Source: Granulosicoccus sp.
GTDB taxonomy: Bacteria; Pseudomonadota; Gammaproteobacteria; Granulosicoccales; Granulosicoccaceae
DNA: 64,000 nt
Direction: 5' to 3'
NCBI GenBank assembly: GCA_023300375.1
Contig: JALZWO010000072.1
Location: forward strand, 1 to 64,000
Shown here: piece by piece, positions 140-42,107 of the stretch
How positions within the stretch are numbered: position 1 is the stretch's first letter
How the letters are laid out: each line of letters starts with the position of its first letter
Translations under genes and position numbers: made by a program
The notes under the pieces: model-generated
The model's input: the letters and a program-made list of their open reading frames with translations, nothing else
The model's database searches: none
What the model was told of the DNA's origin: nothing

Positions 140-308
140 ATCTGTAAAATGCCCTATAAAAGAGCAAATAAGTGATGGACGTATATGTAGAAATGTTCTT
201 ATCACATTGTTTTTTAACGACTTTCTAATTATATTCTACAAAAAATCATCTTGCGCTAACGCGGAGCGCTATTTGCAGCTCCACACTGCAACATCAACAT
301 GTAACCCC

Positions 309-1364
309 ATGAACCCAAGCACCAACACCCTACTGGATTCCATGGCCACAGCTGTTCTGGCCTTGGATGAGCGAATGCGGATCACGTACCTGAACGGCGC
401 TGCTGAGCAGCTGCTAGGCATTAGTGCGCGCAAGGCTCTGGACCAGCAGCTGCCGCGCATGCTAACCATTCCTGACACCCTGTTCGCTCGCCTGCGAGAA
501 GCACTAAACAACGGCCAGCCTTTTACTGAACGTCAAATCACAGTAGAGCCACACGGGCAAGATCCTCAACTTGTTGACATGTCGCTGTCGCCGTTTCGAG
601 CCCACGATAACAGCACAGCGCTGGCACTCGAAATCAACACGATCAATCGGCCACTGCGCATTGCACGCGATGAGGCCATGGTAGCCCAACAAGAACACGC
701 CAGCTCTCTACTACGTGGGCTTGCTCACGAGATTAAAAACCCGCTAGGTGGCTTGCGTGGGGCTGCGCAATTGCTAGACAGGCAACTGCCCAATAGGGAA
801 CTTAGCGAATACACCGCTATTATCATCCGTGAGGCAGACAGACTACAAAACCTTATAGACAGGATGTTAGGCCCCACTACCAGACCACAACGAACTCCTA
901 TCAATTTGCACGAAGTTCTCGAGCATGTGCGCAAAATCATTATCGCTAGCGCACCTGATGGAGTAAAGGTCAGGTTTGATTACGACCCCAGCATTCCTGA
1001 ATGCCTGAGCGATAGAGACAGACTGGTGCAGGTCGTTCTCAACATTGCCGGCAATGCCGTGCAAGCCGTTGGTGAAGCGGGAACCATTGTGTTTAGTTCA
1101 CGAGTGATTAGTAACTTCACCATAGCGGCAAAACGACACCCACTGGTTGCCAAGCTATCGATACATGACAACGGCTTGGGCGTACCAGAACATCTCATTG
1201 ATCAGATTTTCTACCCTATGGTCACAGGCTTTGATAGCGGCACCGGGCTTGGCTTATCAATAGCACAGTCAATGATGAACCAGCTAGGCGGAATGATCGA
1301 ATGCCAAAGCACACCTGGCGATACAACGTTTACCATACTCATACCTTTGGAAATAGCACAATGA
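309..1364 (+). CDS. glnL: Nitrogen regulation sensor histidine kinase NtrB/GlnL
   Basis: PAS-like N-terminus (LDSMATAVLALDERMRITYLNGAAEQLLG), H-box GLAHEIKNPLGGLRGAAQLL, and ATPase motifs NAVQAV / DNGLGVP / GTGLGLSIAQ. ORF 207..1364; ATG at 309 is the likely start. Confidence 0.93.
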   Translation: MNPSTNTLLDSMATAVLALDERMRITYLNGAAEQLLGISARKALDQQLPRMLTIPDTLFARLREALNNGQPFTERQITVEPHGQDPQLVDMSLSPFRAHDNSTALALEINTINRPLRIARDEAMVAQQEHASSLLRGLAHEIKNPLGGLRGAAQLLDRQLPNRELSEYTAIIIREADRLQNLIDRMLGPTTRPQRTPINLHEVLEHVRKIIIASAPDGVKVRFDYDPSIPECLSDRDRLVQVVLNIAGNAVQAVGEAGTIVFSSRVISNFTIAAKRHPLVAKLSIHDNGLGVPEHLIDQIFYPMVTGFDSGTGLGLSIAQSMMNQLGGMIECQSTPGDTTFTILIPLEIAQ

Positions 1365-37409: not shown

Positions 37410-38726
37410 TCATTGAGCTATTAGGTTGATTTCCACTCGTCGATTGTTCTGCCGACCTAAAGCTGTAGAGTTAGTCTCAATGGGACGAAGCTCACCAAAC
37501 GCACGCGCCTCCAAACGCTCCTTGGGAATACCGCTTTCAACCAAAAATTTGGCCACCTCAAAAGCCCGCCGCTTGGATAAAAGCATATTTGCATCAGCAT
37601 CTCCCAAGCTATCAGTGTGAGCTACCACACGCGCTCTTGCGTTTGGGCTCTCCAGTAGAGAATTTGCAACAGCTTGAAGCACCACGCGAGCGCTCGCACT
37701 GAGTTCCGCCGAGTCTGCAGCAAAAGTGAGTCCGTCGATGACACCGTTGAATAGCGCACAACCATTGTCTCCGACAGCAACTGTTACAGGCGTATCAGGG
37801 CAGCTATCGCTAGCTTCCAATACTCCGTCACCATCTGTGTCATTCGCGCTGAAAATGCGCTCAACAGTAGTTGACTTTCGATCTCTAGATTGCCGTTTAT
37901 CGGCGGCGCCACGGCCCATAAAAGGCACATTGGGAACCCAAGATGGAAATCCGCCAAATCGATAGAGCACACCTAACTGCAGATAATTAGCGTGCCGACC
38001 ATAAGCGACGCCTTCAGCCCGAAAAGCCAAACCAGGCCGGAATGAATATTCCAGACCAGCGCCAAGCAAGGCGTGCAAGCCTGCAGTGTTATTCGCATCT
38101 GGTCTATTGCTACTACGTGTAGACAAATGCCCAAGACCTGCTCGACCAAAAAAGCCCAGACCTTGCCGATTGTAGGCCGCTCTGTTTTGAGTGAGGTACC
38201 AAAGAGCGCTTAAGCCGTAGTCCGTAAAACTAATATCGCTGTTGTCAACAAGCTTTGCATCGCCCAAGTCAGTGGCGTGCAGCTCGGCAGACAGCCAACG
38301 ATTTATATCTATACCCAGTGTCACTTGGTAGCCAATCTGACTGTCGTCTTCAACATCTGAACTTGGCACATCACGAGAGTCTGGATCAAGGAAACTTCTA
38401 CCGATGCCTACACCTATGTAGGGAGCTCGTGTCAGTGTGCTTGGACGATCGTCGACTATCTGAGCTAAGCCTTGCGCACTTGCATCAGACAAAAGCTCTT
38501 GGTCAGAACGAGTAGCGAAGCCAATGCCGCGCACCCCGGATACAGTTCGCGCATTTTCATTGTCTAGCAAACTTTTCTCAACCGTTGAGGTGTCAGCTAG
38601 TGGGGCCTGATTTGACACTGAGACTTGCGCCACTGCACAGGGTATAAAAAACACGCTCATCACTGCTAGTGCAAGAGAAAAGCACCGCGTAGGCGTGCAT
38701 TCCTTGTGAATTTTTTGACAATTCAA
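37410..38726 (-). CDS. OmpA family outer membrane protein with TSP3-like Ca-binding linker
   Basis: N-terminal beta-barrel (ITLGIDINRWLSAELHATDLGDA), NDTDGDGVLEASDSCPDTP, C-terminal OmpA domain (VVAHTDSLGDADANMLLSKRRAFEVAKFLVESGIPKERLEARAFGELRPIETN...NRRVEI). Confidence 0.92.
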   Translation of the reverse strand: MNCQKIHKECTPTRCFSLALAVMSVFFIPCAVAQVSVSNQAPLADTSTVEKSLLDNENARTVSGVRGIGFATRSDQELLSDASAQGLAQIVDDRPSTLTRAPYIGVGIGRSFLDPDSRDVPSSDVEDDSQIGYQVTLGIDINRWLSAELHATDLGDAKLVDNSDISFTDYGLSALWYLTQNRAAYNRQGLGFFGRAGLGHLSTRSSNRPDANNTAGLHALLGAGLEYSFRPGLAFRAEGVAYGRHANYLQLGVLYRFGGFPSWVPNVPFMGRGAADKRQSRDRKSTTVERIFSANDTDGDGVLEASDSCPDTPVTVAVGDNGCALFNGVIDGLTFAADSAELSASARVVLQAVANSLLESPNARARVVAHTDSLGDADANMLLSKRRAFEVAKFLVESGIPKERLEARAFGELRPIETNSTALGRQNNRRVEINLIAQ

Positions 38727-38930: not shown

Positions 38931-39440
38931 TCAGGTGGCCTTTGAGCCCTGTGGAATTATTGATTTGGCAAGCTCCATAAACGCCTGATCAACGCCATCA
39001 CCACTTAATGAACTGGTCTGAACAACAAAACACGAACCAGCCTCCAGCCCAACGCTATCGCATCGAGTTTGCGGGTCTTCTGGTAGGTCACATTTACTGT
39101 AAACCAATACGTAGGGCATTGGGCCAAAATTTTCCTGCACACGGTCTCTCAAGGCTGTAGCAACCTGAACCGTATGCGGTTGAGTGCTGTCAACCACCAA
39201 GATGTACCCAGCAATTCCCTTGAGAAACGATATTAGCACTTTGTCATAGCGATCTTCCCCCTGTATATCCCACACAACAAGACCTACTGCCTGTTGGCCC
39301 ACCTGAAGGGTTTTCTTATGTACTTTCACACCAATAGTTGACTGATATTCCCCAGAAAAGCAGCTGTGGATATATCGCTGAGCCAAACTCGTTTTACCGA
39401 CACAAACGCCGCCTAGTAAACATATTTTTCTAGAAATCAC
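38931..39440 (-). CDS. Ras/Rab-like small GTPase
   Basis: P-loop GGVCVGKTSL, switch-I-like STIGVKVHKKTL, G3 WDIQGEDRYDKV, G4-like YSKCDL, G5-like TSSLSGDGV. Confidence 0.85.
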   Translation of the reverse strand: MISRKICLLGGVCVGKTSLAQRYIHSCFSGEYQSTIGVKVHKKTLQVGQQAVGLVVWDIQGEDRYDKVLISFLKGIAGYILVVDSTQPHTVQVATALRDRVQENFGPMPYVLVYSKCDLPEDPQTRCDSVGLEAGSCFVVQTSSLSGDGVDQAFMELAKSIIPQGSKAT

Positions 39441-40696
39441 TTCTCACTCTCGCTTGCTACTAAAGCCTGTCCCACTTTGCCCGAGGCTTCAGTATTTACA
39501 GCATTAAACGTTGACCTCCCCTTACCAAAATCACCAGTTAGCGTCGGATCTTGTGATTGAAACAAGTACCACTTAACCGATGTGTCCTCCAAGTTGATCT
39601 TTGCTCGTTCCAGTATCGAGGCCGCAGATGCTGACCGAGGGTCACGAAGCAGTAATAATCGAGACTTGAAAAACAACGCCGCATCAGCGTTTATGACCAC
39701 TACACCAGGCTCTCTGCTAAGCATAGATAATGATCTGCCCCACAGACGATGATGCGAGACATAGTGCTCTGTAAAAAAAATGCCTAAAGCCACAATACAA
39801 AGTACTCTCGTCATTGTGAAAAAAGGTTTAGCAGGTTTCGAAACTTGCGATTCCACCTTGCAATTTCGGCTAATTTCACCAATGTCTAATGCGCTAAATG
39901 CATCGTCAGAGCCCATGCAATCTCTTAATTCTTCTGCATATTGAATGTGGACTTGTCGCAAGGTTTCTGCGTAGTGGAACTTGGCTGCACTATCTGGAAA
40001 TCCTCGAACCACTACAGCAAGAATAGCTTTTGGTCCCCACTCAACCAAAATGGTTAGATCACCTAATTCAAGACTGTTCATGCCATCAAATTCGTCTAAA
40101 GCAAACGCTTCCTCCACAAACGAGCGAATTGCACTGAGCATGCCTGACACCAAATCAGGATCTCGTTCAGCGCCCTCATGCAGAATTGAATGTGACAAGA
40201 CAAGGCTGGTCTCTCTGTGAATCAGAAACAGCTGCTCCACATCGAAAGGTTTGACCTCATCCCCTTCACTGCGCTTGAACAAGCCAGCAACCATCTTGCG
40301 CAGTGCTGGCCCAAGAACTGGGTATAGCGCTTCAGCCATTTTCTCAGGTTGTTCTTTGAAGCATTTATGCACACCCGCTGAAATTTCAGGTTCAAGTTCA
40401 ACTGTTAGCGTTCTATTGTCATCATGCAATTTATTGATAGATGCAGGCAGTATCTGGCTACAGTCTTGTGAGCTCATATACAACTCGTTGAGCTGTCCCT
40501 GAACCTCGCTCAATTGCGCTTCCAACTGAGCCTGTCGCTTCAACGCAGGTCCAAGCACTAACTGGCGAAACTTGGCCAGTTCATCCACCGACTCATTTTC
40601 GGATTCGTTAGTTGGCTCTTTGATTGATTCGTCTGCAGTCTCAGTAGACGAGCGTAGCTCAAGTACGTTACCAGTCTGAACATATTTATTATTCAA
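39437..40696 (-). CDS. Membrane protein partner of small GTPase (N-terminal coiled coil, central cytoplasmic domain, one TM, C-terminal BON-like domain)
   Basis: Overlaps the GTPase gene by 4 bp (ATGA). FDVEQLFLIHRETSLVLSHSILHEG central domain; TM MTRVLCIVALGIFF; REPGVVVINADAALFFKSRLLLLRDPRS after the TM. Confidence 0.65.
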   Translation of the reverse strand: MNNKYVQTGNVLELRSSTETADESIKEPTNESENESVDELAKFRQLVLGPALKRQAQLEAQLSEVQGQLNELYMSSQDCSQILPASINKLHDDNRTLTVELEPEISAGVHKCFKEQPEKMAEALYPVLGPALRKMVAGLFKRSEGDEVKPFDVEQLFLIHRETSLVLSHSILHEGAERDPDLVSGMLSAIRSFVEEAFALDEFDGMNSLELGDLTILVEWGPKAILAVVVRGFPDSAAKFHYAETLRQVHIQYAEELRDCMGSDDAFSALDIGEISRNCKVESQVSKPAKPFFTMTRVLCIVALGIFFTEHYVSHHRLWGRSLSMLSREPGVVVINADAALFFKSRLLLLRDPRSASAASILERAKINLEDTSVKWYLFQSQDPTLTGDFGKGRSTFNAVNTEASGKVGQALVASESEK

Positions 40697-40949: not shown

Positions 40950-42107
40950 ATGAAAAAAAATGTTTCGAAAGTATTGATAGTCGATGACGATATCGACTAC
41001 TCAGTGCTGCTTGGCATGTTTCTATCTCGTGATAGAGACACCGAATACGAAACAATGCTGTGTCACAGTGGCGCGGATGCAGTTGCCAATTGCAAATTGC
41101 AAACATTTGACTGCCTGTTAGTGGATTACAACTTAAATGACATGACAGGCGTCGAGGTCATTGAGGAATTACGCAAATGCTTGGATGAAAAAATGCCGCC
41201 GGTGATCATTGTGACATCCGGTGGTTTAGAGGATGCGGCTATAAATTCATTGCGCGCTCGCGCAACCGATTTTTTATTGAAAGACAACGCTAACCGTGTC
41301 AGCGTGGGACGTGCCGTAAAAAATGCCATCGAGCAGGGCCGACTGAACCGTGGTGTTCACGAGAGTCGACGAGAACTCATTGTGGCAAATCTTGAACTTG
41401 AGCGGCAAAAATCCGAGATTCAGCGTTTTTATCATGTGGTATCTCATGAAATGAAAACGCCATTGACTGCTACGAGGGAATTCTTGTCTATCGTGATCGA
41501 TGGACTTTTAGGGCCTGTCAATGATGCCCAGCTCGAAGTCCTTCAAGATGCACTCATCTGCTGTGATCAAATCAGCATGCAATTCAACGACCTTACAGAC
41601 TTGACCCGATTAGAAACCGGCAAGCTGTCGCTAAACATTAAAAGCACATGCCCAGAAGCCATGCTTAAAAGGGTTCTGGCTATAGGCAAAGAGAGAGCAA
41701 ATGAAAAAGGTATTTCTTTAGAATACAAGGCACGCGGCGAGATACTGCCAGTGAACATGGATGAGTCTCGAGTCACACAGGTCCTGAATAATTTAATTGG
41801 CAATGCGATTAAATTCACCAGCAAAGATGGAATAGTGCGCTTATCTGTTCTGGGAGCTAAAGACCAAGCTTTACGAATTCGCATTATCGATACAGGTTAC
41901 GGCATAGCAAAAGCCTATAAAGAGGATATTTTCGAGAGGTTGTATCAAATTCACACCCACAGTGCTAGCCACGCTCAAGAGGGCTTAGGCCTGGGACTGA
42001 GCATTGCTCGAGAAATAATCAGAGGCCATGACCATGAGCTTAATGTTAGAAGCAAGCTGGGTGTTGGTAGCTGCTTTTATTTTGAACTCAGCACCTGCAA
42101 CTCTTGA
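40950..42107 (+). CDS. Response regulator-histidine kinase (REC-HisKA-HATPase)
   Basis: REC VLIVDDDIDYSVLL / CLLVDYNLNDMTGVEVI; H-box VVSHEMKTPLTATREFLSIV; N-box NNLIGNAIKFTS; DTGYGIA; GLGLGLSIAREII. Confidence 0.93.
   Translation: MKKNVSKVLIVDDDIDYSVLLGMFLSRDRDTEYETMLCHSGADAVANCKLQTFDCLLVDYNLNDMTGVEVIEELRKCLDEKMPPVIIVTSGGLEDAAINSLRARATDFLLKDNANRVSVGRAVKNAIEQGRLNRGVHESRRELIVANLELERQKSEIQRFYHVVSHEMKTPLTATREFLSIVIDGLLGPVNDAQLEVLQDALICCDQISMQFNDLTDLTRLETGKLSLNIKSTCPEAMLKRVLAIGKERANEKGISLEYKARGEILPVNMDESRVTQVLNNLIGNAIKFTSKDGIVRLSVLGAKDQALRIRIIDTGYGIAKAYKEDIFERLYQIHTHSASHAQEGLGLGLSIAREIIRGHDHELNVRSKLGVGSCFYFELSTCNS

Follow-up and report, generated by a model that had tools for sequence, protein, structure and literature searches.

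A reduced Group 1 Rup module in Granulosicoccus sp.: a Rab/Ras-like small GTPase paired with a membrane protein of predicted longin/roadblock fold

The 64,000-nucleotide stretch of Granulosicoccus sp. DNA analyzed here (the window) carries a reduced second copy of a Group 1 Rup module, in which the gene for a Rab/Ras-like small GTPase overlaps that for a membrane protein, referred to below as the platform; the copy is without the coiled-coil gene, the output gene and the OmpA domain of the module, and its GTPase has SKCD as G4 motif. The pairing of GTPase and platform is confirmed as real, being conserved across at least six phyla and far beyond chance. Group 1 Rup systems, a widespread family, were catalogued previously as having GTPases very similar to Rab, Ran, Ras and Rho; the central domain of the partner protein was left as of "unknown function," no MglB partner was predicted and there was no known regulator (Wuichet and Sogaard-Andersen, 2014; PMC4316618). 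The type of gene pair is therefore already described, and what is new is the prediction, for the central domain, of a longin/roadblock fold, the kind that governs such switches in eukaryotes and Myxococcus; neither a later study of the Rup family nor a link to longin or roadblock folds was found in the open-access papers searched. In the reading that we consider probable, the longin/roadblock platform docks the GTPase, controls its nucleotide state, more likely by exchange than as a GTPase-activating protein (GAP), and couples it to the envelope, with possible cross-talk to a complete system.

The GTPase gene (38931–39440, minus strand; 169 aa, GTG start) matches Pfam Ras (E = 9.7e-26) and Roc (2.4e-20), and it shares 4 bp with the 3′ end of the platform gene (39437–40696, minus strand; 419 aa, TTG start), an open reading frame with homologs in other genomes whose product has no match in Pfam or NCBIfam. 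Open reading frame calls bear out the coordinates, protein lengths and overlap given in the initial annotation, and the intact Ras-fold P-loop that it reported is present as GGVCVGKT (G1; 39390–39413, minus strand). About 205 bp downstream of the GTPase gene lies the gene for an OmpA-type outer-membrane protein with a β-barrel and an OmpA domain (37410–38726, minus strand), which occupies the same place in the nearest relative (genome G008). Directly upstream of the platform gene, and divergent from it, is the gene for a receiver-HisKA-HATPase hybrid kinase (40950–42107, plus strand), with an 85% identical ortholog in the same place in G008. This kinase was considered as the missing output and rejected: it is encoded on the opposite strand, has an N-terminal receiver where Rup outputs have a conserved region of their own, and stays put in G008 despite the loss of the platform there.

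The window GTPase has the switch-I Thr (TIGV), WDxxG and a G5 region (SSL); the position of Ras Thr35 is Thr or Ser in the 113 family GTPases compared. Like the rest of the family, its P-loop is without Gly at Ras position 12 (Phe in 101/113, Gly in 0/113). The G3 motif reads WDIQGED (39252–39272, minus strand), as annotated initially, but the Gln before Gly, for which a possible effect on intrinsic hydrolysis had been suggested, falls at Ras position 59, which is variable in the family (Tyr, Ala, His, Gln or Glu), while position 61 holds Glu. What matters for catalysis is the replacement of Gln61 by Glu, which is common to most of the family (Glu in 88/113, Gln in 0/113). The G4 motif, on which the initial annotation was silent, is SKCD (39087–39098, minus strand; Asn116 to Ser); SKxD occurs only in the window GTPase and its orthologs in G008 and G023 (loci L173 and L022), and NKxD in the remaining 110 of the 113. 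Neither SKCD nor Glu61 proves a dead enzyme: Rac-type GTPases, which have TKxD, are good nucleotide binders, and Ras with Q61E can still hydrolyze GTP.

The window GTPase sits with the Rup GTPases in the phylogenetic tree, from which MglA is split off at 100/100 support, and the three SKCD GTPases form a supported clade (100/98) inside the Rup family. It is a Ras-superfamily protein shorter than 240 aa, has Asp in G3 (WDxxG) and Glu instead of Gln at the catalytic G3 position, and lies outside the MglA clade, all as in Group 1 Rup GTPases; both its G3 Asp and its grouping with Rup set it apart from the MglA clade. Among solved structures, the family profile comes closest to Rab23, Sec4 and Rab7. 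Loci L049 and L050 (genomes G073 and G204) form a deep side branch, with a divergent platform and a GTPase whose G3 motif is WDTDGNF.

The platform begins with a coiled-coil helix predicted by the structure model (residues 34–91; 40424–40597), followed by a conserved helix bearing a P..GPA.RK signature in the family alignment and the model (residues 117–139; 40280–40348), the predicted longin/roadblock core (residues 152–258; 39923–40243), a single transmembrane helix assigned from hydropathy and a model helix at 290–327 (residues ~291–313; 39758–39826), and what family comparison and the model indicate to be a short periplasmic BON-like remnant (residues ~330–385; 39542–39709), all encoded on the minus strand. 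The N-terminal coiled coil and one transmembrane segment proposed at the outset are thus both found, the latter as a weak segment (best 19-residue window 291–309, mean hydropathy 1.78). Unlike the wider family, the protein has no OmpA domain; it otherwise has the central domain and transmembrane segment of a Group 1 Rup partner, is homologous to the OmpA-bearing relatives and keeps nearly all family signature residues in its core. When the full-length family profile was compared with the PDB, its only matches (OmpA and BON-OmpA structures) concerned the periplasmic part. Residue 155, at the start of the first strand of the core, is Gln in 92 of 102 central domains and His or Glu in the other 10.

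Structure prediction supports a longin/roadblock fold for the central domain. AlphaFold models of the full-length platform (12 sequences; pLDDT 62.8) and of the central domain (residues 92–285, 102 sequences; pLDDT 80.2, pTM 0.64) both place the secondary structure in the order β-β-α-β-β-β-α, with a five-stranded sheet and flanking helices. In Foldseek searches of the PDB with both models, the best 50 matches were all in structures that we take to contain longin or roadblock folds, including AP chains (AP-sigma), zeta-COP, TRAPP subunits, Ego3, Rag C-terminal domains, Lamtor, Asgard roadblocks, MglB by itself and MglB in complex with MglA (3t12); the matches of the second model also include Mon1-Ccz1 with its Rab, Ypt7 (5ldd). 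E-values were modest (3e-4 to 5e-3) and target-normalized TM-scores reached ~0.6 at best; helices flank the central core on both sides, and both roadblock and longin structures are among the matches.

Profile searches of Pfam, NCBIfam and the PDB, the last including the central-domain profile against PDB chains, did not identify the domain. Among its 102 relatives, Robl_LC7 was matched below threshold by three (best E 0.014) and the Fuz/Mon1 longin family by three (best 0.055), and unrelated Pfam families matched as often as Robl_LC7 or more; the Robl_LC7 sequence signature of an MglB is accordingly confined to those three sub-threshold matches. Alignment of the central domain with 30 bacterial roadblocks by hhalign gave a sensible register with a marginal score, near noise (P 0.027; reached by 1 of 150 shuffles, with controls lower). 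Because independent sequence evidence is weak, the fold assignment rests on prediction. At that level, the co-occurrence described below and the Foldseek results support the initial idea of a roadblock/longin-type platform; its likening of the pair to MglB and MglA holds only as an analogy at the level of predicted fold, since the domain is barely linked to MglB-type roadblocks by sequence profiles.

A query with just the window platform yielded no relative in public genomes; a search with the family alignment returned at least 501 stretches with platform relatives, of which 80 named loci were kept. These come from cyanobacteria, Acidobacteria, Desulfobacteraceae and their kin, Nitrospirae, Verrucomicrobia, beta- and gammaproteobacteria, and others. 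Platform relatives were present in 17 of 39 related genomes and in 25 of 275 sampled gammaproteobacterial genomes; the GTPase was found in all 25 of the latter vs. 4 of the 250 genomes without a platform (Fisher 1.2e-31), and the matches in these four were weaker. In the named genomes, the GTPase gene lies near the platform gene at 78 of the 79 informative loci, which span at least six phyla, mostly at a distance of −4 to +40 bp; at two of them (L084 and L127) it is upstream and on the other strand. The exception is L085, with no GTPase close to the platform, and L080 is not informative since its contig ends 93 bp downstream. The conserved co-occurrence on which the initial annotation had made its proposal of a co-encoded pair depend is therefore present in other genomes, with the genes nearly always adjacent.

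A paralogous pair, not mentioned in the initial annotation, lies on contig C161 of the same genome (platform of 427 aa, ~30% identical; GTPase of 167 aa, 42% identical). There it belongs to a five-gene operon that encodes a coiled-coil protein, the platform, the GTPase, a 132-aa protein and a PAS/GAF histidine kinase (626 aa), which makes one complete system in the genome that also holds the window copy. Coiled-coil and output genes are absent at the window locus, so the window copy is a reduced Rup member by descent and not a complete system. The orthologous locus of G023 is complete and encodes a coiled-coil protein, a 395-aa platform that likewise has no OmpA domain, the GTPase and a PAS-histidine kinase. 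G008, which is syntenic with the window over 33–46 kb, has an intact GTPase gene (80% identity to the window; pN 0.12, pS 0.75), an internally deleted, frame-broken remnant of the platform gene (L173:7678-8709, G008:C14) and a complete paralogous operon (L008). The GTPase can thus be kept without its own platform, at least for a time, and its outliving the platform in G008 suggests either cross-talk with the complete system or recent loss.

Pfam scans of 20 downstream proteins from named genomes recognized seven histidine kinases (several of which also carry receiver or Hpt domains), four HD-GYP-type proteins (HD_5), three sigma-54 activators, two class III nucleotide cyclases and one SpoIIE phosphatase; three had no recognized catalytic domain. 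This catalytic range is wider than described in 2014, when GGDEF/EAL proteins and histidine kinases were given as typical outputs (PMC4316618), and, given such diversity, the GTPase–platform pair resembles a fixed front end to which exchangeable outputs are joined. Varied outputs lie 3′ of the GTPase at L056, L059, L073, L077, L094, L097, L100, L101, L105, L110, L114, L116, L121, L125 and other loci.

In the mechanism that we favor, the Rab-like GTPase would act as the switch and the platform as a bitopic inner-membrane protein whose cytoplasmic middle domain, of predicted longin/roadblock fold, docks the GTPase and sets its nucleotide state. The periplasmic tail, which is BON-like and in most relatives precedes an OmpA domain that binds peptidoglycan, would sense or anchor to the envelope and couple the platform to it; in complete systems, the GTP-bound switch and the coiled-coil protein would together control the variable output enzyme. 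The platform may anchor the GTPase and promote nucleotide exchange in the manner of longin guanine nucleotide exchange factors (GEFs), which is likelier than activity as an arginine-finger GAP because the GTPases are without both Gln61 and Gly12. Because the output and coiled-coil genes are missing at its locus, the window copy probably has as its target either the output of the complete system encoded elsewhere in the genome or an unlinked partner. The persistence of the G008 GTPase beside a remnant of its platform counts against this mechanism.

An MglB-like GAP, which would position Glu61 or supply a side chain of its own, such as the near-invariant Gln155, is an unlikely identity for the platform. 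For MglA, the roadblock homodimer MglB is known to act as GAP/GEF, most central domains do have Gln at position 155, and a Gln in trans has been proposed for Group 1 Rup GTPases, which are without the G3 Gln; the authors, however, placed that Gln in the output protein (PMC4316618). A catalytic role in trans for Gln155 is held unlikely because the residue is not invariant, being replaced by His or Glu in some members, and, from what Ras biochemistry would imply, the family-wide lack of Gly at position 12 speaks against an arginine finger. It is likewise improbable that the platform is an effector or anchor, binding the GTP-loaded GTPase and relaying its state outward to the envelope with the nucleotide unregulated. 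Longin folds do also serve as structural parts or effectors (AP-sigma and zeta-COP are among the top Foldseek matches), but the gene order and the almost strict one-to-one pairing are at least as compatible with a dedicated regulator, and the variable effector domains sit on the output gene, not on the platform.

We give still less credence to the window copy being a duplicate in decay that has no independent function. The truncated periplasmic part, the absence of coiled-coil and output genes at the locus, the G4 SKCD and G5 SSL motifs and the platform remnant in G008 would all fit decay; yet both window open reading frames are intact, the GTPase is strongly constrained relative to G008 (by the pN and pS values above), SKCD is kept in three species, among them the more distant G023 with its complete operon, and the platform core has retained nearly all of its signature.

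Among known systems, the window pair shares with Group 1 Rup a Ras-like GTPase with WDxxG and no G3 Gln and a partner with a conserved central domain and one transmembrane segment (usually with a C-terminal OmpA domain in Rup), whereas it keeps only GTPase and platform, where Group 1 Rup loci also have coiled-coil and signaling output genes, and differs in its OmpA-less platform and its G4 SKCD. As in MglA–MglB of Myxococcus and Thermus, a small Ras-like GTPase gene stands beside a gene for a roadblock-superfamily domain (here a predicted fold, with MglB among the Foldseek matches), but MglA has no Asp in G3 and branches off with full support as a clade of its own, and MglB is a free-standing cytoplasmic roadblock hardly related by sequence profiles. 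Actinobacterial conservons (CvnA-D) likewise are membrane signaling operons with a small GTPase, a roadblock-type protein and a kinase; in contrast, CvnB is a separate roadblock protein, the GTPase is of the MglA family and there is no OmpA-linked platform. The pairs of Rabs with longin GEFs (Mon1-Ccz1/Rab7, Inturned-Fuzzy/Rab23, TRAPP/Rab1) resemble the present one in that Rab23, Sec4 and Rab7 are the nearest solved GTPases, the platform model matches Mon1-Ccz1 longin domains in complex with a Rab, and there is a weak Fuz/Mon1 longin echo in Pfam; the likeness of the longin domains is one of predicted fold, and the window system differs in being bacterial, in having its platform fused to a transmembrane segment and a periplasmic domain, and in its GTPase without Gln61.

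A bolder extension, possible but doubtful, is that the partner of Group 1 Rup GTPases generally is a membrane-anchored longin exchange platform, the bacterial counterpart of the Rab–longin pairing of Mon1-Ccz1, Fuzzy-Inturned and TRAPP across many phyla, in which case longin/roadblock platforms would serve both the MglA and the Rup branches. The predicted longin/roadblock fold turns an orphan Group 1 Rup system into a testable one. If true, it would join MglA–MglB, Rag–Ragulator, Rab–longin GEFs and Rup in one scheme, and would show how an envelope-linked bacterial switch drives histidine kinases, HD-GYP proteins, nucleotide cyclases, phosphatases and sigma-54 activators.
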